A DNA stretch of 64,000 nucleotides. Source: Puniceicoccaceae bacterium. GTDB lineage: Bacteria > Verrucomicrobiota > Verrucomicrobiia > Opitutales > Coraliomargaritaceae. Each line of letters starts with the position of its first letter. Position 1 is the stretch's first letter. The stretch spans positions 1 to 64,000 of the forward strand of contig PBYS01000060.1 of NCBI GenBank assembly GCA_002729725.1. The letters are read 5' to 3'. The notes below the pieces were generated by a model. The model made no database searches, was not told the origin of the DNA, and saw only the letters and a program-made list of their open reading frames with translations. Shown here in pieces: positions 8,343 to 51,870 of this stretch. The position numbers and the translations under genes were made by a program.

Positions 8343-9941
8343 TTAATCAAGCTTTCGGTAATTTACGCCTGCGGATTCAAACCGCTTTTCTTGAGTTTGC
8401 ATGCGTCTCTTGAAATCGGTGTAGTCTCTCTGTTCTCGGGGCAGCCAGACAATTTCGGACAGTGCGCACGCTCTTGGGAAAGCCATGTATTCCACATGCT
8501 TGATGTTAGGCATATATTCCGTCCAAAGTTGCCCCTGAGCCCCAAGAACATGTTCGGCGGCTGCGGGGCTTAAGCCTTCAATGATCGGTTCAAACTCGTA
8601 GACCTTCTCTAATGGCAAGAATCCTCCGATGGCGAGCGGCTCATTTTCTTTATTTTCACTCTGGTAATAGTCAAAATAGAGGGCCTTTTGTGCCGCAACG
8701 ACTAAATCATGCCCGTTTTCTGTGGCAATCTGTGCAGTCTCTAAGCCATTATGACCACGCCACCACATCACAGCTGCATTCGGGGCTAAACCACCTTCGG
8801 CAATTTCGTCCCAGCCAATTAGACGGCGTCCATTGGCGACCAGAAAATCGTCCATCTTTTTAATGAACCAGCTCTGCATTTCATGCGAGTCCTTCAGGCC
8901 GCGCTCTTTCAGTAACTCTTGCACGCGTGGGCTCGCATCCCACTGATTTTTTAGCGCTTCGTCACCGCCGATATGGATAAATTTCGACGGAAACAGATCC
9001 ATCACCTCAGTGAGCACGTCTTGACAAAATTGAATGGTCGATTCTTCGGGGTTTAAAATAATTTCGCTGATGCCCCATTCGTTCCTCAGCCCCACTGGTT
9101 TATCTGTACAACCCAATTCAGGATATGCCGCGATGGCAGCCTGCATGTGCCCCGGCATGTCAATTTCTGGCACAATCGTTATGCTGCGCGCTGCCGCATA
9201 GTCCACCACTTCACGGATTTCGTCCTGTGTATAGAACCCGCCATGCGGTTTGCCGTCATACTTACGTGGTTCGTCCTGGAAATGACCGACTTGTGTCTCT
9301 TCACGAATGGAACCCACCTCCGTCAATCGAGGATACTTATTGATCTCAATACGCCAGCCTTGGTCTTCGGTTAGGTGCCAATGCAGGATGTTGAGCTTAA
9401 GGGATGCCATCATATCGATAAATCGCAATACGTCCTCTTTGGGCATGAAGTGACGCGCTACGTCCAAATGTAGGCCGCGCCAACTAAAACGCGGTCGATC
9501 GCGAATCTCGACAACCGGTAACGTCCAATCGGCGGAAATTTTGCTGGCTGAGTAGATGTTTGGTGGCAAAAGTTGACGCAACGTCTGTGCCCCATAAAAA
9601 AGCCCAGCAGGTGTTTGCGCACTAATCACGATCTGTTCGGCTACAGTTAGTGTATAGCCTTCGTCGCCAAGTGTCTCATCTTCAATCATACAGAAAACCA
9701 CGTCGCCCGCATCGCCAGGTTGCACCAAGAATGGATAGCCCGTGGCGGGTCGTAATTGCTTAGCCAATAGCTGCGCGACTGCTTCGGAGTTCGGATCCGT
9801 ATACGAAAGACTGGTGTACGCTGTCAGTTCAAATAAGCTGTTCGAGACTTTGATCTCAACTGGACTAGGAATGAGAGATAGATCCGTTTCTCCGGAAATC
9901 AATGAACATGATTTCTGAGGAATATGTGTATACTTGGACAT
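8343..9941 (-). CDS. GH20 beta-N-acetylhexosaminidase
   Basis: This 532-residue protein hydrolyses terminal beta-linked GlcNAc or GalNAc by substrate-assisted catalysis. An N-terminal GH20b-type domain (to about 145) precedes the barrel. Family motifs seen are RGLHLDVARHF (155-165), LNILHWHLTEDQGWR (183-197), PEIDMPGHM (258-266) and the catalytic pair D327-E328 in FIHIGGDEA. No signal peptide is visible. It follows GH3 on the same strand, but remnants of other genes separate them, so co-transcription is uncertain. Its presence beside beta-glucosidases means the cluster may handle an aminosugar-containing glycan, or that two neighbouring loci have fused by deletion. Confidence 0.95.
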   Translation of the reverse strand: MSKYTHIPQKSCSLISGETDLSLIPSPVEIKVSNSLFELTAYTSLSYTDPNSEAVAQLLAKQLRPATGYPFLVQPGDAGDVVFCMIEDETLGDEGYTLTVAEQIVISAQTPAGLFYGAQTLRQLLPPNIYSASKISADWTLPVVEIRDRPRFSWRGLHLDVARHFMPKEDVLRFIDMMASLKLNILHWHLTEDQGWRIEINKYPRLTEVGSIREETQVGHFQDEPRKYDGKPHGGFYTQDEIREVVDYAAARSITIVPEIDMPGHMQAAIAAYPELGCTDKPVGLRNEWGISEIILNPEESTIQFCQDVLTEVMDLFPSKFIHIGGDEALKNQWDASPRVQELLKERGLKDSHEMQSWFIKKMDDFLVANGRRLIGWDEIAEGGLAPNAAVMWWRGHNGLETAQIATENGHDLVVAAQKALYFDYYQSENKENEPLAIGGFLPLEKVYEFEPIIEGLSPAAAEHVLGAQGQLWTEYMPNIKHVEYMAFPRACALSEIVWLPREQRDYTDFKRRMQTQEKRFESAGVNYRKLD

Positions 9942-41540: not shown

Positions 41541-42794
41541 GTGAGTATCAAAAAACAAAAAAAGGCTGGTAAAGAACTGCTACAAGCAGCGAACAAGGTG
41601 TATCATTACCGGCGGGATGTTTTGTCGGAAGCACGCTTGGTCGAGCTCGATAAAGCTGTGGCCGAATTAGATGCGATGCTGCGTGATCCCGCAGTTAGCG
41701 AGAGCCCGCTGGAAGCCTGTATGAACCGCCTCGATACCTTGTTACGCAAGATCGGCGGTAAGATTTATCCCAAAACCTTTTGGAGTGACAATTTAGAAGT
41801 CGCGCTGGTCGCTGCCATCATCGTGATCGGCATACGAACTTTCTTTTTCCAGCCCTTCATTATTCCCACCAACTCCATGTATCCGACCTACAGTGGGATG
41901 AATGCGGTGATGTATGAGGATAAAGATGACGCGCCAGCAGCCCTCACAAAGACCTTTCGTTTTCTGACGCTCGGGGCACGCCACAAAGCACTGATCGCGC
42001 AAAATAGCGGCGACATTCAAATCCCCATGGCTGCCACCAAAGATGGCGGCATGCGCATTTATTTCAAGCAAGTCAAAGGTAAGAAGTGGGGCGTTCTACC
42101 CACCATCTTGGCCGAATACACCGTCCTCGTCGGTGGCGTACCGCACAGCCTGCGCGTGCCTGCTGATTTTGACATGCAAAGTGCGCTATTGAAGAGCTTT
42201 CCAGGCACCGAGCCAGAGCTCATCCGCACGAATAGCGGCACCGGCTACGCCTTGGATTTGCATTCGCAAGCTCAAGCAGGCGAAGCGATTCTACGTTTTG
42301 ATATCACACTCGGTGACGCCTTGTTTGTAGATCGTATCAGCTATCATTTCAAGCGTCCCCAAGCTGGCGATCCTTTCGTATTTCGCACTCGTGACATACC
42401 GGGCATCGAAGGTGGCGCAAATAGCTACGTAGACAAATATTACATTAAGCGCATTGGCGGCGTGGGCGGTGAAACGCTCGAAATCAAGGACGGCACATTG
42501 CTAGTCGATGGTCATCCACGCGATGAAGTCGAGGCCTACGGCCGCAACGCACGCAAAGAAGGCGAATATGGCGGCTATGTGTATCCCAACAGCAATGGCT
42601 CATATCCACCCAAATTATTAACTGGGCCCGGTGTCAGCAATGAAATACCCGAAGGCAAATTTGTCGCACTCGGCGATAACTCCGCCAACAGTCTCGACAG
42701 TCGCTACTGGGGCTACGTGCCCGAAAAGTCCGTCATCGGCAAAGCCATCTTCATTTATTATCCATTCACAAAGCGTTGGGGCTTGGCCGAATAA
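41541..42794 (+). CDS. lepB: Signal peptidase I
   Basis: A 417-residue leader peptidase that cleaves signal peptides at the outer face of the inner membrane. A membrane anchor (about 85-103) ends just before the catalytic S112 (FIIPTNSMYPTYSG). The Lys is K303 in YYIKRIGGVGGETLE, and the last family box ALGDNSANSLDSRYWG is present. It has an 80-residue cytoplasmic head before the anchor and an insert of about 150 residues between Ser and Lys. Start GTG at 41541. Confidence 0.9.
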   Translation: MSIKKQKKAGKELLQAANKVYHYRRDVLSEARLVELDKAVAELDAMLRDPAVSESPLEACMNRLDTLLRKIGGKIYPKTFWSDNLEVALVAAIIVIGIRTFFFQPFIIPTNSMYPTYSGMNAVMYEDKDDAPAALTKTFRFLTLGARHKALIAQNSGDIQIPMAATKDGGMRIYFKQVKGKKWGVLPTILAEYTVLVGGVPHSLRVPADFDMQSALLKSFPGTEPELIRTNSGTGYALDLHSQAQAGEAILRFDITLGDALFVDRISYHFKRPQAGDPFVFRTRDIPGIEGGANSYVDKYYIKRIGGVGGETLEIKDGTLLVDGHPRDEVEAYGRNARKEGEYGGYVYPNSNGSYPPKLLTGPGVSNEIPEGKFVALGDNSANSLDSRYWGYVPEKSVIGKAIFIYYPFTKRWGLAE

Positions 42795-43038
42795 TCCAGA
42801 CTAAAAGGCCCAATTCGGGCTCCCCTCAGACCAACTGACGTGTAGCGCACAATATATATTATGTCTAATTTGTGAAATTCGGATCAAAGTCTTAATTGAC
42901 GCTCTAGCGAATAACCACTTCTCTGCTTATATGCGTTACTCCGATGTTGCTGCCAATGTGCGTCGCTGATCGCAAGGCGGCTGAGCGCATGGCCAAGCGT
43001 TATGAGGCAATGATTGCTGCTGAACCGAAGGGCAAAAA
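42795..43038. other. Gap between lepB and island with a short coding scrap
   Basis: No complete gene is here. The last 75 nt carry an open frame ending AAERMAKRYEAMIAAEPKGKK, whose TGA overlaps the ATG of the next frame (ATGA). This suggests the tail of a lost gene once coupled to the HEPN-like one. The rest is unremarkable AT-rich sequence; a small G/C hairpin after lepB (42810-42826) is too weak to call a terminator. Confidence 0.4.
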
Positions 43039-43408
43039 ATGAATCAGCCAAAATCGGAAACAGATACGATCAAACGTTCGATGAACTCTTATGCGTTTAG
43101 AGTTTTCCGAGACATTGCCGACCAAGATTATATTACTGCCCGTTTTTGCTTTCGAGCTGGATTAGTCCCGCAATATAGATGGCATTTGGCCATCCGCATA
43201 AAGAGATTACAGGTTTCGACAAAGGCATTGACTACACAGGTCCTGCGACCATTTTCTTCATTACATCTCTCCAGTCAGTTTCGACAGCTGGACGCGGGAC
43301 GGTTCTTTCGAGAGGCGTCCCTGCATTTTTTTATAAGATCAACTGCGAGGAAATAGTAGACTCGGTGTTTGATAGGATTCGCGGTTGCCCTCGACCAAAT
43401 TTAGTTTG
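43039..43408 (+). pseudogene. HEPN-like domain protein, truncated and frameshifted
   Basis: The first 45 or so codons read MNSYAFRVFRDIADQDYITA then RFCFRAGLVPQY, which resembles the first helix of a HEPN-domain family (Y-A-F-x-x-F-R-D-x-A-D-x-D-Y-I-x-A-R). After that the frame goes into low-similarity sequence and a second frame (from 43179) opens. The catalytic HEPN Arg-x4-6-His is not seen. The remainder to 43408 is unidentified. HEPN proteins are often RNases in defence or toxin-antitoxin pairs; the neighbours agree with that, but the assignment rests on a short stretch. Confidence 0.4.
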
Positions 43409-43420
43409 AATTTCTAAACA

Positions 43421-44122
43421 ATGAAAACTGCTCTTAAATTAAAAGCACCGACTTATATGCGTCAGCGCCTGCTGCTCTTTTTATTGGAAGCTGCAGGCGA
43501 TGCGCTTTCGAAAATGGATCTGCAGAAGCTGCTTTTTCTCTACAACGAAGAGACTGAGGCTGGGCATTACGAAACCTACCGCCGCTTCCCCTACTATGCA
43601 ATTCACAGCGAAATGCGGGATCGCCTCTTAAGCACTGCTGAAGTAGACGCTGTCAAAAACGCCCTACCTGAACCGAAAAACACGATAGACCCAGTTCTCT
43701 TCACCATCGGTTACGAGGGTATTCATTTTGAGGAATACATAAACAAGCTGATCCGCAATCGAGTGGCGGTGCTTTGCGATGTACGCCGCAATCCACTCAG
43801 CCGTAAATTCGGCTTCTCATCGAAGATGTTGTCAACTGTGCTACCGAACCTAGGGATCGAGTATATTCACCTACCGGAACTTGGTATTGCATCGGACAAG
43901 CGAAAAGAACTTAACACCATGTCCGATTATGAAACACTGTTTGCTGGCTATCGCGTGGAGCTTCCGACTCGCACCGAAGGGCTGAAACGCTTGCGAACAA
44001 TCATCGAAAAAAGCAAACGCGTCGCTCTGACTTGCTTTGAAGCGGAGCCACATTGTTGTCACCGTCATTGCATTAGCGATTTACTTGAAGCTCAAGTGGG
44101 CTATAAAGTAACGCATCTATGA
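43421..44122 (+). CDS. DUF488 protein, N-terminal domain apparently shortened
   Basis: The C-terminal part is a clear DUF488: TIGYEGIHFEEYINKL, VLCDVRRNPLSRKFGFS, EYIHLPELGIAS, and the cysteine-rich end VALTCFEAEPHCCHRHC. The N-terminal 65 residues (SKMDLQKLLFLYNEETEAG, then YETYRRFPYYAIHSEM) look like the start and end of a SocA/DUF4065-like helical region with its middle missing. The frame stays open through the join, so a protein may still be made. The biochemical role of DUF488 is unknown; members occur in defence-type islands. Its stop overlaps the next start. Confidence 0.75.
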   Translation: MKTALKLKAPTYMRQRLLLFLLEAAGDALSKMDLQKLLFLYNEETEAGHYETYRRFPYYAIHSEMRDRLLSTAEVDAVKNALPEPKNTIDPVLFTIGYEGIHFEEYINKLIRNRVAVLCDVRRNPLSRKFGFSSKMLSTVLPNLGIEYIHLPELGIASDKRKELNTMSDYETLFAGYRVELPTRTEGLKRLRTIIEKSKRVALTCFEAEPHCCHRHCISDLLEAQVGYKVTHL

Positions 44123-44509
44123 TCGAGCGCATCCTGATTACCGTTAAAACCTACCCCACTCTCTCAAGTAAATATGCAGAACTGGTCTGCACCGCAGGTG
44201 TAAAAGCTGCCCTATAAGTTTTCGTATCGAATCAGTGATGTGAAAGGCAAGGTGTCCAAAATGATGATCGAAGATTGGGAAATTGGAGCCCTCTACTGGA
44301 ATTGCCTGCAACGTGCCAACGGCGACGAAGCGATTGCCGTGCAGAAAGTCCGTGAAAAATATTGGGAATCGTTCGTTAAAAATGAGAATGTCGACCTCAC
44401 CATTGTCCTCGGGACGACACTCCAACACCATAACAAGCGAGCGCCCAATCCTTACGTCATCATCAGCGTCGTGCCGACACCGCATGAACCGCAAATGTCG
44501 CTGTTGTGA
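44119..44509 (+). pseudogene. Collapsed gene downstream of DUF488 (internal deletion and frameshift)
   Basis: A first frame starts with ATG overlapping the DUF488 stop and reads MIERILITVKTYPTLSSKYA, ELVCTAGV, then soon stops. The next frame resumes at LPYKFSYRISDVKGKVSKMM and runs through EDWEIGALYWNCLQ to PYVIISVVPTPHEPQMSLL and a normal stop. Both ends look like one protein family that usually has about 200 or more residues, with its middle missing. The break is near 44200-44215. I recall such proteins beside DUF488 and a helicase; no function is known. Confidence 0.65.
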
Positions 44510-44587
44510 AAACGTCTTCTAACCAGCCGAGGCACTAAGTAGTAAAAAAACACTAGTATTTCAAAAAAACTAGATAGGAAACCATAA

Positions 44588-44757
44588 GTGAGTGAAACAA
44601 ACCAAAAGGGACCAGGTAGGGACCAAGTAGAGGGACCAAGTAGCAACCGAGTAAAAGGACCAACCCACCAAGTAACCCCTCAAGTAACCTCCCAAGTAGC
44701 CCGACTCAAAAATACCGCCTGACCGCCAAAGGCCAGGAACTTTTAAAAACACTCTAA
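44588..44757 (+). pseudogene. Winged-helix/AlbA-type regulator, 3' remnant
   Basis: A GTG-started frame reads GPGRDQVEGPSSNRVKGP followed by THQVTPQVTSQVARL, the Val/Gln/Pro-rich linker found near the end of AlbA_2 (ATP-binding, 'RecG-like') regulators. A one-base shift near 44705 switches to a frame reading YRLTAKGQELLKTL, a wing-like end, whose TAA overlaps the helicase ATG. The N-terminal AlbA_2 domain is missing. The DNA shows repeated CCAAGTA units, which reflect the repetitive peptide. Confidence 0.5.
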
Positions 44758-46209
44758 TGCCCAACCTCATTGAAGTTAATTACGGCCAGACCGGCCAAAG
44801 CACGAACACCGACGCGCTCGGCATGCGCGAAATGCAGGCGAAAGTCTATGCGCAGCGCGATGCGCAGTATTTGTTGCTCAAGGCACCACCCGCTTCGGGT
44901 AAGTCGCGCGCACTCATGTTTCTGGCGTTGGACAGGATGCACCAGCAAGGGATAGCGAAAACCATCGTTGCCGTGCCGGAACGCTCGATCGCGGCCTCCT
45001 TTGCACCGACGCGGCTGTCGGCTTATGGCTTTCCCTACGACTGGGAACTGAATCCGCGCTATGACCTATGCTCCAGTGGCGGTGAATCCAGTAAACGGCA
45101 GCAGTTTAAAGACTTCCTAGCTAGTGACGAAAAGGTGTTGCTCTGCACCCATGCCACTCTGCGCTTCGCCTTTGCGGAAATCGAGAGCGCTGCCCTTGAT
45201 AATGTGCTGTTGGCAATTGACGAATTTCACCATGTTTCGGCGGATTCTGAGAATCAACTCGGCGAAGTTTTGCGCGATGTGATTGCCCATACAGAGGCTC
45301 ACATCGTGGCGATGACGGGCTCCTACTTCCGCGGTGATAGCGTGCTGGTCTTGTCTCCCGAAGACGAAGCATTGTTTCGCCATGTGACTTACAACTACTA
45401 CGAGCAACTCAACGGTTACGAACACCTGAAGTCGCTCGGCATCGGGTATCATTTTTATCAGGGCAAATACATGTCCGCCATTTCGGAGGTGCTGGATACG
45501 GACAAGAAAACGATCCTACACATTCCCAGCCCGAATGCGGGTGAATCGACCAAAGACAAATATGGCGCAGGAAGGCTTCGATTGGCCCTTTTGTGAGCAT
45601 GCACTCACAGTCGGCTACCGAGGCTCCTTGACGCAAGTGATTCAAATTATCGGGCGTTGCACGCGGGATAGTCCCAACAAGACGCATGCTCAATTCACAA
45701 ATCTGATCGCGCAACCGGATGCGAAGGACGATGAAGTCACTTTCGCGGTGAATAATATGCTGAAGGCGATCACCTGTTCTTTACTGATGGAGCAAGTCCT
45801 CGCTCCAAATTTCAAATTCAAAACCCGCGTGTCCGACGACGAAACAAATGCGCCGGGTGAATTGAAAATTCGCGGATTGAAAGAGCCGAGTTCCAAGCGT
45901 GTGCAGGACATTACTGAATCGGACCTCAATGATCTAAAAGCGACGATTTTACAGGATAAATCCATGCAAAAAGCGATGCCCGGAGGCGTGGATCCCGAGG
46001 TGATCAATCAGATTCTCATCCCGAAAATCATTCAAACCAAGTATCCCGATCTCGATGAACGCGAAGCGGAAGAACTGCGACAGCATGTGGTGGTCGACTC
46101 CGTCATGGCGGGTGCGGTGATGGAAGATAGCGGCGACCGTCGAATCATCAAAATGGGCAGCAAGTTTATCAATATTGATGAGCTGAGCATCGACTTGATT
46201 GATTCATAA
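44757..46209 (+). pseudogene. DEAD-type helicase/ATPase, internal deletion and lost C-terminus
   Basis: The first frame (44757-45596) carries Walker A KAPPASGKSRA (K49), a motif Ia-like IVAVPERSIAASF, Walker B LLAIDEFHHVS and motif III VAMTGSYFRGD. It then breaks. The second frame (from 45562) starts AQEGFDWPFCEHALTVGYRG and has motif VI VIQIIGRCTRDSPNKTHAQF. Between them about 100 residues of the second RecA domain, which should lie after SPNAGESTKDKYG, are missing, with a frameshift. The C-terminus stops at LSIDLIDS, where an IS66 remnant begins. This probably was a superfamily 2 helicase of a defence-type operon. Confidence 0.8.
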
Positions 46210-46954
46210 ATCATCATCAGCCACTGCTCGGCCACATGGCGTATCTACCCGCCCATGGTCTTACGGCTGATAAAGACGCCGAAGCGCATCTTGAAGGATT
46301 GCTCCTGCCGGTGCAGCGGCATGTGCTCCAGATACTTGGCCAGGATTACGTGGACCAGGAGCCTCACCGAGGCCAGTCCGCCTAGAAGCACACGCGGTGG
46401 GCGTGGTGCAGTCAGTGGGGCTGCGGCACGGTCTGCTTTGTCCACATAACGGGGAAACACCTGTTGGATCTTGATAAATCTGGCCGGTTCCAGATCGATA
46501 ATCTCGGTGACTTCCGGCTCACCGATCTCGCGGTAGCGGTCCGGGTCGGCCATCACTTCATCGGGGATGATCCGCTCGGTGCGCTCTTCGATATCATCGG
46601 GCAAACTGAAGCGCTTGACCCGCTCCTCTGGCTCCTGCTCGCCGCTGGAGACTGCGGCGACCAACTGATCGATCGCTTCGTCTTCACGCTCACCGCTTTG
46701 GGCATGCAAACTTGTCAACTGCGCCTCAGCCAGTCCCAGTTGGATCTCCAGTTGAGCGTGATCGACCTTCTCGCCGCGGCCGGTGCCAAAGAGCTTTTGC
46801 CGCAAGGCGCCGATCAACTTGGTCAGCCGTAAGATCTCACGGCTATTGCGCTCATCGCGGCGCAGCAACTGCTTGCGTTCTCGCTCCCATGCCGCGCGCT
46901 CGGCCAGAAACTGTTCGACTGTTACTTCACTGCTAATCTAATAGACGTTAACAC
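46203..46954 (-). pseudogene. IS66 transposase (TnpC), 5' part only with internal stop
   Basis: The frame runs from about 46954 (SSEVTVEQFLAERAAWERER) through LIGALRQKLFGTGRGEKVD, the IS66 coiled-coil and zinc-finger region ARFIKIQQVFPRYVDK, to KMRFGVFISRKTMGG. There an in-frame TAG (46245-46247) stands where family members have Trp; reading through gives IRHVAEQWLMMIYES. Beyond about 46203 the sequence is the end of the helicase on the other strand. So the catalytic DDE domain is lost. The zinc finger has no full set of Cys, another sign of decay or of a variant. Confidence 0.82.
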
Positions 46955-46986
46955 GGGACTGAGGAAGTACAAGCGCAATTGAGAGC

Positions 46987-47286
46987 TTATTCGTAAATTT
47001 TTGGCTTTTTGCCTTCGCATAGATCCTCGGCGGCTCTGGCGCTCAACACTGAAGTGCCCCGACTGCGCTCGATCCAGCGGTAATGGCCTTGCTTCAAGCG
47101 CCGCGACCCCATCCAGAGTCCCGAGCGATCCAGACGCACGCACTTCATCAAACTGCGACTGCGGTTACTAAATAAATACCAAGTCCCCGGCTCCGGATCG
47201 TCCACCAAAGCCACCAAGCCAGAGGCACCTTTGCGTAAATCGACCACACCATGAAACAGAACTACCTTTGATTGATTGAATTGCAT
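46987..47286 (-). CDS. tnpB: IS66-family accessory protein TnpB
   Basis: The 99-residue protein is the IS66 Orf2/TnpB accessory protein: DLRKGASGLVALV, the WYLFSNRSRSLMKC motif, and VRLDRSGLWMGSRRLKQG. The frame is intact. It precedes the TnpC remnant by 32 nt on the same strand. No TnpA gene is visible upstream, so the element is incomplete. Confidence 0.9.
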   Translation of the reverse strand: MQFNQSKVVLFHGVVDLRKGASGLVALVDDPEPGTWYLFSNRSRSLMKCVRLDRSGLWMGSRRLKQGHYRWIERSRGTSVLSARAAEDLCEGKKPKIYE

Positions 47287-47333
47287 CCGGGGATACTAAA
47301 ACAGAAATCAACTCATGCATAGGTGGGGGAAGA

Positions 47334-47549
47334 ATTACCGGTTACAAACTAGAGCTAATACTACACAAGTTTTTTGGACACGCATGCCTGGAAGTGGACG
47401 TCTTTGATAATAAGGGGAAACGACATACCCCACGCGAATGGTTTATTGCTCCACTCCCTGTTATCGAAGAAGCGATCCGCCTGATAATGACGGGAGAGAT
47501 CGTAAATTTTAAATATTCACATGAAAATCGACTGATTGTGACGCGCTAA
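47334..47549 (+). pseudogene. GIY-YIG nuclease (MUG113/T5orf172 type), C-terminal remnant
   Basis: 71 codons from 47334 read TGYKLELILHKFFGHACLEV, then KGKRHTPREWFIAPL, PVIEEAIRLIMTGEIVNF, and end NRLIVTR. This matches the end of the GIY-YIG domain family with MUG113-type tails (H-x-F-F-G-x-A-x-L ... H-T-P-R-E-W-F). The GIY-YIG motif itself lies before the break and is gone. The IS66 remnant separates it from the helicase, which in related operons lies directly upstream. Confidence 0.75.
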
Positions 47550-47584: not shown

Positions 47585-50092
47585 CTACACCCTGCGCAGC
47601 ACAATACCGAGCAGTAATAAGAACATTGCACTGAGCACAAAGACTGGCGTGGCCGACTGAAGCGCGGATGCTGACACTAGCTGATCGCGGATCGTTGCTG
47701 GGGTGAACGCTGGCACTTGTTGTAATTCCGGCGCGGGCTTCGCTCCGAGTCGATACTCGGCTGGATACGAACGCTGCCAGCGCAGCACTTGACTGCGGCC
47801 CAATGTGAGGTCGCGAATGTTTAATACCAAGCGATCCAGTCCTGCCAGCGACAGTTCGCCTGCATACTGCCCAAGTCCGCTTTGTGTTAACTCCAGCACA
47901 TGCGTCTGTCCGCGCTCATCCAGTGCCTCGGCACGCCATGATAATTGATTGACTGGCCGCATGCCCGGGTCTTGCCGTAAGACCTGCACTTGCATGCGCT
48001 CCCCTTGCACGGAGGACTGGACGGACATGCCTGCACCGGACTCTTTCTTTAAAATCCCGCGGATTACTTGCGCCCAAAACTTCGATCCGCTGGGCCAAGA
48101 GAGCCATTCACTGCCCCAACGATCCGTCAGGTCCGAGGTATAAGCCAGTCCCGTGCCCAGCCCAAAACGTGATACTGCGAGTAAGGGATCTCCAGTTTCG
48201 GCCACCAGTAAGACCTGTGCGGTCGGGGTCGGTCGTGTCATGACATAGCCCAGAACCATTGGTAATTGACTGCGCTCGTAGCCGCTCAAAATTGGATGCT
48301 CACCGGCTTGCACGCTGGCGTAGAGGTCTTCTTTGATTGCAGACTTCGACGCTTGCATGGTCTCTTTGGTGAAAATCGTCGGCACGGAATTGGGATCATT
48401 GGTCTCGTAGTAACGCCCTTTTCCTATCTGTGCGATGGCTTGCATCAGCTCGCGCGCGGCGCCTTGCCCGAGCGCTACCGTCGAAATCGTGACACCGCGA
48501 TTGGCCATCTCCTGCGCCATCGCCTCATATTGCCCGCCCCCGGTTTGACCATCCGACAAGATAATCATGTGTTTGATACGGGTGGAAGCACGATCCAGCA
48601 TATCTTGGCCCAGTTGCATGCCTGGCTGTAAATTGGTGCCACCTCCTGCTTGCAAGGAATCAATCGAGCTGGCGACGAGCATCTGATTGGAGGCCGAAGT
48701 CATTTCACAAATGACCACCGCCTGACTATCAAATCCGATCACTGCGATCTGATCATTTCCGTTTAAGAGTTCCGCCGCCGCTTTAGCAGCCTGACGAGCC
48801 AGTGCAATGGGCACTCCGCTCATCGAGCCCGACTTATCAATCACCAGCACCATCGCCAACGACGGTTTTTGCTTTTCCTTTTCAAAACGTGAGCTGAGCG
48901 GCAAAACCTCTTCCACCGCGCTGCGATAATAGCCACCCAGCCCGAAGGAGTTCTCAGAACCAAACATCGCGAGCCCGCCACCAAACTCTGTGACGTAACG
49001 TTTTAAATAGTCCATTTGCAAAGGTCTGAGATCAGTCGCCGCCACGTCTGCCAAAATGATCGCGTCAAAGGCGAGCATGCCTTCCATGGTATCCGGTAAA
49101 CCGCGCGCCCCGCGCACATCAAGTTCGATCCCCTGCTGCTTCATCGCTCGGTCAAAGGAGCGCATCTGCCGGGGATCTTCGTGAATGACCAACACATGAG
49201 GCTCCCCTTTGACTTCCACCGTGGTCGCGATTTGATTATTGATGAGAAAGTGATCCGCCTCTGGCACCAGTTCCGCAGTCCAGCGACTGGCACCAGAGCT
49301 GAGCATTTCAATATCCACAGCGACCTCCAACAAGTCATTGGCAGGCAATTGCACGGCTTGCTCCAGATGGACCACCCCTTGATGCAGTATCCTCAAGCGC
49401 GAAGGCATGGCAGTATTCGCTCGCATCGCCACACGCATCCGCACCACCTCACCTTTAAAGGCGAACGGAGTGGCTGGCGTGAAACTCAACAAGGCCGCCT
49501 CACTCGCCTGCAAGGATTGCAAATTACGAAAGCGCACATCAATCGATTCCTCCGCAAGCTGTGACAGGGCATCCGCGAGATTCCCACCATTGACCTGAGC
49601 ATCTGAAAATACGACGACGCGGCGTGCCTTGCCGGACGGGAAACTCAAGCGCGAGGCCAGCAAGGCGTCACCCAAGCGACTCGCAGAGCGAAACTCTGCA
49701 TCGCTCGTGCCCTGCTCGCTCGCCACGACAAAGGCCTCGATTGACTCGTCTGTGGCTGCCCGTAAGCCATTGCCAAAGAGAAAGAGCGAGTAACTGTCTC
49801 CCGCGCCTAAGGCCTGAATCGCAGCCTGCGTTTCCGCCAAGGCCGTGCGTAGCTCGGTCGCTTCAATCGACTCCGAGGCATCCAGTAAAAAGACCACATG
49901 CAAGCGCTCGCTTTCGCTGCTCCAATAAGGCCGACAGAGCGCGAACAAGAGCAATAACACGGCCAACATGCGGCAGCCCGCCGACGCCCACTTCAGCCCG
50001 CGCGGTCGGTCCACTAAAGAAGTCTTCACCGCGACACCAAGCACGATCAGTAGCAGTGCGCCCAACAATGGTTTGTATGATAAAAATTCCAT
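47585..50092 (-). CDS. Membrane protein with two VWA domains and an amidotransferase-like domain
   Basis: The protein has 835 residues from the ATG at 50092. Two N-terminal membrane segments (about 8-22 and 38-53) are followed by a first VWA domain with D71, S73 and S75 (DASES) up to about 195, a beta-rich part, a class I glutamine-amidotransferase-like domain (300-400; ADVAATDLRPLQ, FGGGLAMFGSENSFG) without a catalytic Cys that I can see, and a second VWA domain with D419, S421 and S423 (DKSGS) and LSDGQTGGG. A C-terminal membrane segment ends FLLLLGIVLRRV. It is the last gene of the operon, 8 nt after the BatA-like gene. Probably binds partners through Mg-dependent VWA sites in the periplasm. 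Confidence 0.85.
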   Translation of the reverse strand: MEFLSYKPLLGALLLIVLGVAVKTSLVDRPRGLKWASAGCRMLAVLLLLFALCRPYWSSESERLHVVFLLDASESIEATELRTALAETQAAIQALGAGDSYSLFLFGNGLRAATDESIEAFVVASEQGTSDAEFRSASRLGDALLASRLSFPSGKARRVVVFSDAQVNGGNLADALSQLAEESIDVRFRNLQSLQASEAALLSFTPATPFAFKGEVVRMRVAMRANTAMPSRLRILHQGVVHLEQAVQLPANDLLEVAVDIEMLSSGASRWTAELVPEADHFLINNQIATTVEVKGEPHVLVIHEDPRQMRSFDRAMKQQGIELDVRGARGLPDTMEGMLAFDAIILADVAATDLRPLQMDYLKRYVTEFGGGLAMFGSENSFGLGGYYRSAVEEVLPLSSRFEKEKQKPSLAMVLVIDKSGSMSGVPIALARQAAKAAAELLNGNDQIAVIGFDSQAVVICEMTSASNQMLVASSIDSLQAGGGTNLQPGMQLGQDMLDRASTRIKHMIILSDGQTGGGQYEAMAQEMANRGVTISTVALGQGAARELMQAIAQIGKGRYYETNDPNSVPTIFTKETMQASKSAIKEDLYASVQAGEHPILSGYERSQLPMVLGYVMTRPTPTAQVLLVAETGDPLLAVSRFGLGTGLAYTSDLTDRWGSEWLSWPSGSKFWAQVIRGILKKESGAGMSVQSSVQGERMQVQVLRQDPGMRPVNQLSWRAEALDERGQTHVLELTQSGLGQYAGELSLAGLDRLVLNIRDLTLGRSQVLRWQRSYPAEYRLGAKPAPELQQVPAFTPATIRDQLVSASALQSATPVFVLSAMFLLLLGIVLRRV

Positions 50093-50100
50093 AGCCGCGT

Positions 50101-51870
50101 CTAGCCGACAAGCCTCCGGTGATAGAGTAATGATTCCACCACGAGTAAGAAAATCGCGGCGATCAATAGCCAATGTGCCAAGGACACGCTGCCCGTTCGT
50201 GGCTGGACTTCGGTGCGGGGTGCTGCGGTCAAACTCGATTCTTCCGCATTCAGCAGTCCAACTCCAAACTCCCAAGCCAATGAGTCTGTATTCAAATGAT
50301 AAGTACCGGCAGCGGGCAGCCGCATGCTCTGTCCACCGGTCACGATACTCGTGCGATCGTGTGGCGCAGACATCGTCCAGGACGTCGTGGGCGTGCCTGG
50401 CGCCTCAACGTTGCGACCAGTCGTGTAGACCGGAGCAATCGCAGCCTCACGGCCAGACAGATGCAGGGCCGCCGCATGCACCATCACTGGAAACCATGGG
50501 GATAGGAAAAAGTTGCCAGCATTTGGGTCTAAGTTCACGACCAAGGCGCTGCGCTGTGCACGCGTGATTTTATAAATCAGCGGCGTGCCATCGTCGGCGG
50601 CCACTAGCACCACCGCGCCGGGCGCAGGCACGAGTTCGCGGGCACCGGCAAAGCGCAAGGCAGGCACATCCAAATGCGCAAGAAAATGATGGCTGGGCGT
50701 AAGTATTTCCGCTAGCTCCACCGCAATCGGCTCTCCCACTGATTCCCAAAAGGGCGAACTGCCGGTGGGGTTGAAGATCAATGTTGTGGGCGCATCGCTG
50801 CTGCCCTGCCCTTCGACTAATTGTAGCGATGCATTGGTTGTCTCTGAGAGCTGAAGCACACCGCCGGCTTGCGCAAACGCACGCACACAATTCTCGTAAA
50901 ACCAGGGGTGCTCACTCTCAATACGGACCGTGATCGGGCGTCGCGGGTTGAGGCCCAACGTGATCGTATCATCCAAGGCCAAGGCATCACTATGCAGCAA
51001 AGACATCTGCCACATTCCAGGCCTGACCCCGGCGAGCTCAAATACAGTTTCAAAGCTAGCATCCGCCGCGATCGTCAAGGGCAAGAGCTTCGCCACCACG
51101 CCGGTCTCCAGATGGCGTAGTTCTAAATCAACCGACAGTTCGGACGCGGCACGATTGAGCACACGCAGATAAAAAGTCGCCGCATCCGAACGCCCTGGCT
51201 GCCACTGCACATCTGCGGCAACGATCCCGGCATTGCTAACAGGCTCCAGCTCCAACACGCAGTATTCCAGTCCTGCGGGCAATGTCGCTCGACTCGACGG
51301 ATGATCGGTAATGAACAGAATTCGGTAGGACGCATCCTCGGCCAATAAATCGGCAAGCAACTGCACCGCCGACTCACTGAGCGGCATATCACTCGCTTGA
51401 ATCGCGGCCACTGCATCCAGCAATTCACGTGGGTAGCGACTTAAATGCGAATGAAAGTGCAAGCCGTCGCTGATCGAAGCCACTGCGGCCTGACGCTGAC
51501 CATCCAAGTTTCGAATCCAACGCTCCGCTTCCGCTTGCGCCAACTCCATCCGAGTGCCGTGCCCCGTCTGCGCCTGCATCGAGGCAGAGGCATCCACCAC
51601 AATGATCAAATCGCGGGAATCGTCTGTTTCAATGACCGGCTCTGCCATCGCAAAGGCTAACAGTGCCAGCACCAGCAACATCAACAACAAGGACCACAGG
51701 TCGCGCAGTCGCTTGAACAACGCGCGACTGCTGTTTTGCTGATAGATCTGTTCCCACAAAAAGAAAGCATTGGTCGCCTGCCGACGTGGGCGCACTTTTA
51801 AGAAGTACAAGGCCGCCATGATCGGCAACGCGATCAGCGAGAGTAACCACCATGGACTCAGTAGACTCAT
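50101..51870 (-). CDS. BatA-like VWA membrane protein
   Basis: A 589-residue protein with a BatA N-terminus (LSPWWLLSLIALPIMAALYFLK), a second membrane segment (58-77), and a VWA domain with the metal site D93, S95, S97 (VVDASASMQA). A long beta-rich part follows, then a C-terminal membrane segment (HWLLIAAIFLLVVESLLYH). It overlaps the DUF58 gene by 4 nt (ATGA). In the classic Bat operon such proteins act with MoxR and DUF58 proteins; here the domain order and size fit the Planctomycetes/Verrucomicrobia type. Confidence 0.88.
   Translation of the reverse strand: MSLLSPWWLLSLIALPIMAALYFLKVRPRRQATNAFFLWEQIYQQNSSRALFKRLRDLWSLLLMLLVLALLAFAMAEPVIETDDSRDLIIVVDASASMQAQTGHGTRMELAQAEAERWIRNLDGQRQAAVASISDGLHFHSHLSRYPRELLDAVAAIQASDMPLSESAVQLLADLLAEDASYRILFITDHPSSRATLPAGLEYCVLELEPVSNAGIVAADVQWQPGRSDAATFYLRVLNRAASELSVDLELRHLETGVVAKLLPLTIAADASFETVFELAGVRPGMWQMSLLHSDALALDDTITLGLNPRRPITVRIESEHPWFYENCVRAFAQAGGVLQLSETTNASLQLVEGQGSSDAPTTLIFNPTGSSPFWESVGEPIAVELAEILTPSHHFLAHLDVPALRFAGARELVPAPGAVVLVAADDGTPLIYKITRAQRSALVVNLDPNAGNFFLSPWFPVMVHAAALHLSGREAAIAPVYTTGRNVEAPGTPTTSWTMSAPHDRTSIVTGGQSMRLPAAGTYHLNTDSLAWEFGVGLLNAEESSLTAAPRTEVQPRTGSVSLAHWLLIAAIFLLVVESLLYHRRLVG

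Follow-up and report, generated by a model that had tools for sequence, protein, structure and literature searches.

The dnmA-yeeB-yeeC cluster combines an MmeI-like methyltransferase, devoid of a nuclease motif, with helicase and T5orf172/GIY-YIG partners (PMC7261158). In that paper, which cites Morgan 2009 on this point, the cluster is suggested to form a Type I-like restriction-modification (R-M) system; Morgan 2009 and Makarova 2011 are cited in both papers on the cluster (PMC7261158, PMC9973331). The Bacillus subtilis genes did not restrict phages or plasmids in the tests performed (PMC9973331, PMC7261158). According to PMC9973331, which cites the study concerned, removal of the homologues in Vibrio crassostreae raised the sensitivity to some phages, and in these papers this is the only lineage in which a phage function of the intact system is reported.

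We analysed a window of 64,000 nucleotides from a Puniceicoccaceae bacterium (contig PBYS01000060.1, positions 1 to 64,000). An island on the plus strand (42931-47549), between lepB and a VWA gene, contains successive genes that have kept their ends and lack their middles (Table 1). We propose, with a probability of about 0.88, that this island is a recent fossil of a dnmA-yeeB-yeeC-type R-M operon with defence cargo, located beside the chromosomal dif site. The cargo would comprise a HEPN protein, the PDC-M19 pair and a HATPase_c_4/SLFN-type gene. On this reading the locus is what decay has left of a system already known, and does not represent a new one. The original prediction described an eroded defence-type island, and all the parts that it named were found on the expected strand between the expected flanks; the methyltransferase scraps, the IS66 remnant and dif were absent from it.

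Table 1. Features of the island and its flanks (positions in the window)
Feature	Position	Strand	Remarks
lepB	41541-42794		Left flank of the island
dif (XerCD) site, chromosomal	42845-42869		25-nt motif at the left island edge
MmeI-like DNA methyltransferase, three scraps	42931-43042	plus	Colinear with the 887-aa gene of G004 (L022)
 N-terminus	42931-42961	plus	
 internal scrap	42962-42997	plus	
 C-terminus and stop	42998-43042	plus	
HEPN-domain protein	43039-43185	plus	First 49 residues, then frame loss
Debris	43186-43420	plus	No Pfam hit; DKGIDYTG stretch weakly Fic-like
PDC-M19A (DUF488 protein)	43421-44122	plus	Pfam DUF488 E 7e-27; PADLOC PDC-M19A E 1e-78
PDC-M19B	44119-44509	plus	PADLOC PDC-M19B E 6e-30, profile 185-268 of 269
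Cargo gene, C-terminal tail (HATPase_c_4 / Fic-like_C winged helix)	44588-44757	plus	155 bp internal deletion
YeeB-type SF2 helicase	44757-46205	plus	212 bp internal deletion at 45570, and frame break
IS66, truncated	46206-47345	minus	Between helicase and GIY-YIG tail; Pfam TnpB_IS66 4e-17, DDE_Tnp_IS66 1e-7
 TnpB	46987-47286	minus	
 TnpC, N-terminus	46245-46868	minus	3' half of TnpC gone
YeeC-type GIY-YIG (T5orf172/MUG113) protein	47346-47549	plus	C-terminal 67 residues; 82% aa identity to G004
VWA gene	47585-50275	minus	Right flank of the island

A DNA search of 57 related genomes revealed a counterpart in G004, a sister species of the same genus, with matches at lepB-dif, in the helicase and in the GIY-YIG tail. 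The outer matches are ~9.5 kb apart in G004 and ~4.8 kb apart in the window; at the left junctions the two loci are colinear, with 85% identity. In the orientation of the window, the G004 island (L022) contains genes for an MmeI-like methyltransferase (887 aa), a DRT8-like reverse transcriptase, DUF4326 and DUF3800 proteins, a HATPase_c_4/Fic-like_C protein (200 aa, probably truncated as well), an SF2 helicase (639 aa) and a T5orf172/MUG113 (GIY-YIG) protein (385 aa). At L022 11244-12821 (minus strand), within the R-M operon, the cargo slot has the reverse transcriptase gene and, after it, the DUF4326 and DUF3800 genes. The search for an intact operon that accompanied the original prediction has thus yielded a largely intact counterpart at the same lepB-dif site; its cargo differs from that of the window, and G004 is not the exact ancestor. 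The two loci provide a matched pair: the same R-M island at a single chromosomal site, largely intact in G004 and freshly broken in the window, in which the loss of restriction systems can be studied.

At the left end, the methyltransferase has been reduced by deletions of 386 bp and 2169 bp relative to G004, leaving ~35 codons. The first gene of the operon is therefore represented by descent only, the working gene being gone, and no paralogue was found elsewhere in the source genome, although such an empty result is weak. The HEPN-like gene named in the original prediction was recognized through homologues in G196 and G205 (E 1e-5 and 1e-4), intact relatives of 260-290 aa that carry the Pfam HEPN domain (E 1e-7 and 7e-10). 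The debris that follows has a weak tblastn match (E 0.48) to the Fic-like cargo gene of L062. The next two genes correspond to PDC-M19, and their losses were measured by alignment against intact pairs from other genomes. PDC-M19A, whose best profile stretch is 112-293, has lost ~70 internal residues in frame and persists as an open frame of 233 aa with a complete DUF488 domain and most of its N-terminal part gone. In PDC-M19B, the first ~28 residues are fused out of frame to the last ~105, and ~140 are gone. The two genes are adjacent and overlap by the predicted ATGA (44119-44122); the predicted TAATG (44755-44759) was also present, and both support a true operon. Neither gene has its full length (~295 aa for A, ~270 aa for B).

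At the right end, the winged-helix tail matches G004 at 9576-9638 and from 9776 onward (reverse-complement coordinates of L022). The helicase is 84-85% identical to that of G004 at the nucleotide level on either side of its gap, and its two pieces, of 269 and 211 codons, share 93% and 97% protein identity with it, respectively. For these pieces dN was 0.043 and 0.017, dS 1.02 and 1.55, and dN/dS 0.04 and 0.01, and neither contains an internal stop codon. Walker A, DEFHH, TGS and QIIGR are present across the two pieces, the segment between them being deleted, and the full SF2 motif set is found in G004 and 81 sequences. The helicase ends after its LIDS residues at the junction with IS66, and ~1.2 kb is gone from its C-terminus into the GIY-YIG gene, with the IS66 remnant in its place. 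This remnant is colinear with L024 and L023 and was the only copy found in the source genome at the DNA level. Because TnpC is cut after 207 of ~480 residues, a single deletion probably took part of IS66 together with flanking sequence. Beyond the IS66, only the tail is left of the GIY-YIG gene that directly follows the helicase, intact, in G004. Judging from motif positions in 79 sequences, the tail retains the conserved Glu and has lost GIY, YIG and the catalytic Arg. The GIY-YIG profile had no match in the PDB, and no NCBIfam family scored above its cut-off. The identities predicted for the winged-helix tail, the helicase and the GIY-YIG tail were all borne out by G004.

Altogether, seven deletions were read against G004 and other intact relatives: four of 386, 2169, 155 and 212 bp, two of ~70 and ~140 codons and one of ~1.2 kb, in addition to the truncated HEPN gene. 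The DUF488 gene, the gene after it (PDC-M19B) and the helicase had been predicted to have lost their middles and kept both ends, as was indeed seen against G004 and intact homologues. Homologues with the same short forms were sought and none was found. Sixteen PDC-M19A homologues span nearly the whole profile, and the helicase frame is at least 610 aa in 81 of 84 surveyed loci. Of the other three, one lies at a contig edge, one has a frame of 598 aa and one a split frame; the latter two match the query over its whole length, and none of the three has the gap of the window. By these helicase and PDC-M19A comparisons, with one genome of the species available, the deletions are private to the source genome. 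Two further candidates were rejected: G416, considered for a second decayed copy, and G242, considered for a divergent helicase, each showed a helicase match alone and no operon.

The original prediction also held that such a series is unlike ordinary decay by point mutation. This is partly right. With dN/dS of 0.01-0.04 and no internal stop, the loss of the helicase was recent and due to deletion, and its two pieces were under strong constraint until recently; what inactivated the locus was deletion together with IS insertion, and not a build-up of nonsense mutations. Deletion-dominated gene loss is, however, a recognized mode of bacterial gene decay, and the locus, with so many deletions and no stop in the helicase pieces, is a tidy and recent case of it. 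Short direct repeats were sought within 10 nt of four readable breakpoints, where the longest shared runs were 4, 5, 6 and 6 nt; slippage at repeats is not supported, since there is no clear excess over random pairs. A naive estimate of ~0.02 for the chance that seven deletions would each fall inside single genes was given no weight, because whole-gene losses leave no trace and so cannot be counted, and because one deletion crosses a gene border. It is unlikely that the mostly intragenic run, with no internal stop in the surviving helicase pieces, reflects a rapid, locally concentrated deletion process instead of slow random decay; such a process might stem, for instance, from hyper-recombination in a zone around dif, or from the resident restriction arm cutting its own DNA after methylation failed.

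In its intact state, as judged from homologues, the MmeI-like methyltransferase would mark host DNA on one strand of an asymmetric site, and unmarked invading DNA would be attacked by a Type I-like restriction arm made up of the SF2 helicase and the GIY-YIG protein. The system is predicted to be unable to work here, because the methyltransferase is down to ~35 codons, the helicase is missing its middle and its C-terminus, and no catalytic core is left in the GIY-YIG protein. The most likely order of events would begin with the insertion of IS66 into the GIY-YIG gene. A deletion into IS66 would then have removed the 3' half of the element, the N-terminal part of the GIY-YIG protein and the C-terminus of the helicase. 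Once the restriction arm was dead, the methyltransferase and the cargo would have become dispensable and been lost by further deletions.

The family to which the operon belongs is widespread. Scanning one genome per species gave at least 560 helicase relatives. The best 80 loci came from Bacteroidota, Pseudomonadota, Actinomycetota, Campylobacterota, Planctomycetes, Chlamydiae, an archaeal MAG and others; in these, the helicase is followed in practically every case by a GIY-YIG gene, and a methyltransferase lies upstream wherever the contig extends, with one exception in which it is downstream. Across 66 methyltransferases, the first 115 residues show no conserved D..ExK columns of a PD-ExK nuclease motif; a loose D..ExK pattern occurs in 15 of the 66, the MmeI alignment starts at MmeI residue 98, and the N-terminal PD-ExK domain of a single-chain Type IIL enzyme is not seen. 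By domain content, gene order and the MmeI match, and not by alignment to the B. subtilis proteins, the window operon appears to be a dnmA-yeeB-yeeC cluster.

Type I R-M operons are known to harbour interposed genes. Here, the gap between methyltransferase and helicase is within 100 nt in 40 of 72 loci and exceeds 700 nt in 29. It harbours SLFN_AlbA_2/HATPase_c_4 proteins (a cluster of 12), RhuM-type PDC-S05 (a cluster of 8), PDC-M59A, OLD-like AAA, PDC-S06, PDC-S13, AbiJ-like and PD-Lambda-2_B proteins, DRT8 in G004, and PDC-M19 with HEPN in the window. For several slot proteins of loci L048-L127 (e.g., L106:6455-7297 and L072:6496-7233), the libraries scanned contained no match. In a brief literature search this slot was not found described. 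As a recurrent home of other defence genes in a widespread operon, it is a practical place to seek new antiviral genes.

The motif at the left edge of the island, which we take to be dif from the XerC/D consensus, recurs as a near-exact match of 24-29 nt in the majority of genomes from the family and order, adjoins lepB at 12 of the 13 tested loci that carry it, and lies near the GC-skew switch of the window at ~40-42 kb. The island is therefore at the replication terminus. With up to 3 mismatches allowed, no second dif was found in the window or in L022, each having a single copy. Xer-mediated insertion is thus unsupported, as no second dif lies at the other end of the island, and an IMEX or other Xer/dif-borne mobile element was rejected for want of a dif-like repeat there. 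Towards L022, lepB shows 74% nucleotide and 84% amino acid identity and is less conserved than the decayed helicase pieces (84% and 93-97%), a contrast that may reflect exchange of the island between lineages after their split. The right flanks also differ. In G004 a gene named 4-alpha-glucanotransferase-like from its sequence directly follows the island; its match in the contig of the window lies ~19 kb further on (window 47585 to contig position ~66500), and this intervening stretch, with the VWA operon, was gained here or lost in G004.

Could the true locus be intact, and the deletions be assembly or binning artefacts? The genome is a 4.7 Mb draft of 125 contigs in which the locus is present once; the junctions are those of the assembly, and little point decay is seen beside them. 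However, the genome is 99.98% complete with 0.1% contamination. Several independent junctions lack the long shared word that an assembler needs for a false join, their runs of 4-6 nt being not above random; moreover, the IS66 remnant at one junction and the frame breaks fit real decay. We therefore regard an artefact as very unlikely. Somewhat less remote, although still unlikely, is the idea that the shortened PDC-M19A is a functional reduced protein kept for a role of its own. Its deletion is in frame, it has no stop and conserved DUF488 residues (CDVRRNPLSR, CFE..CCHRHC) are kept, but its partner PDC-M19B is broken, most of its N-terminal part is missing and its form is seen in none of the 16 full-length homologues.

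The original prediction took the intact operon to be functionally undescribed and possibly antiviral. The first point is refuted for the core, whose three genes are those of the described dnmA-yeeB-yeeC cluster (PMC7261158, PMC9973331), and PDC-M19 is already in PADLOC; it stands for the cargo only, since no paper was found under the name of the candidate system PDC-M19A/B, nor any description of HEPN and DUF488 cargo in this slot. That the island is the remains of an undescribed antiviral operon is accordingly very unlikely. The antiviral reading itself is supported by the dnmA-yeeB-yeeC identity, by the phage protection reported in V. crassostreae (cited in PMC9973331) and by the PADLOC entry for PDC-M19.

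The fossil R-M operon can finally be set against the known systems. MmeI (Type IIL R-M, PDB 5hr4) aligns over residues 98-903 with the methyltransferase and target-recognition domains of the G004 protein (E 4e-187), but it has its own N-terminal nuclease in a single chain, whereas this family has separate helicase and GIY-YIG genes. PDC-M19, a two-gene phage-defence candidate of PADLOC with intact pairs in L033, L035 and L037, resembles the window in the adjacency of its A (DUF488) and B genes and in the profiles that they match; here both are internally deleted, and the pair is cargo inside an R-M operon. The DRT8 system of PADLOC has a relative in the G004 cargo slot (E 9e-124) and is absent from the window, where HEPN and PDC-M19 fill that slot instead. 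The closest likeness is with dnmA(yeeA)-yeeB-yeeC of B. subtilis, in which methyltransferase, SF2 helicase and T5orf172/GIY-YIG genes stand in the same order, the methyltransferase likewise lacks the conserved MmeI nuclease motif, and the cluster has been called a relic as well. The window locus differs in that it was destroyed by deletions and IS66, carries cargo between methyltransferase and helicase, and lies beside dif.
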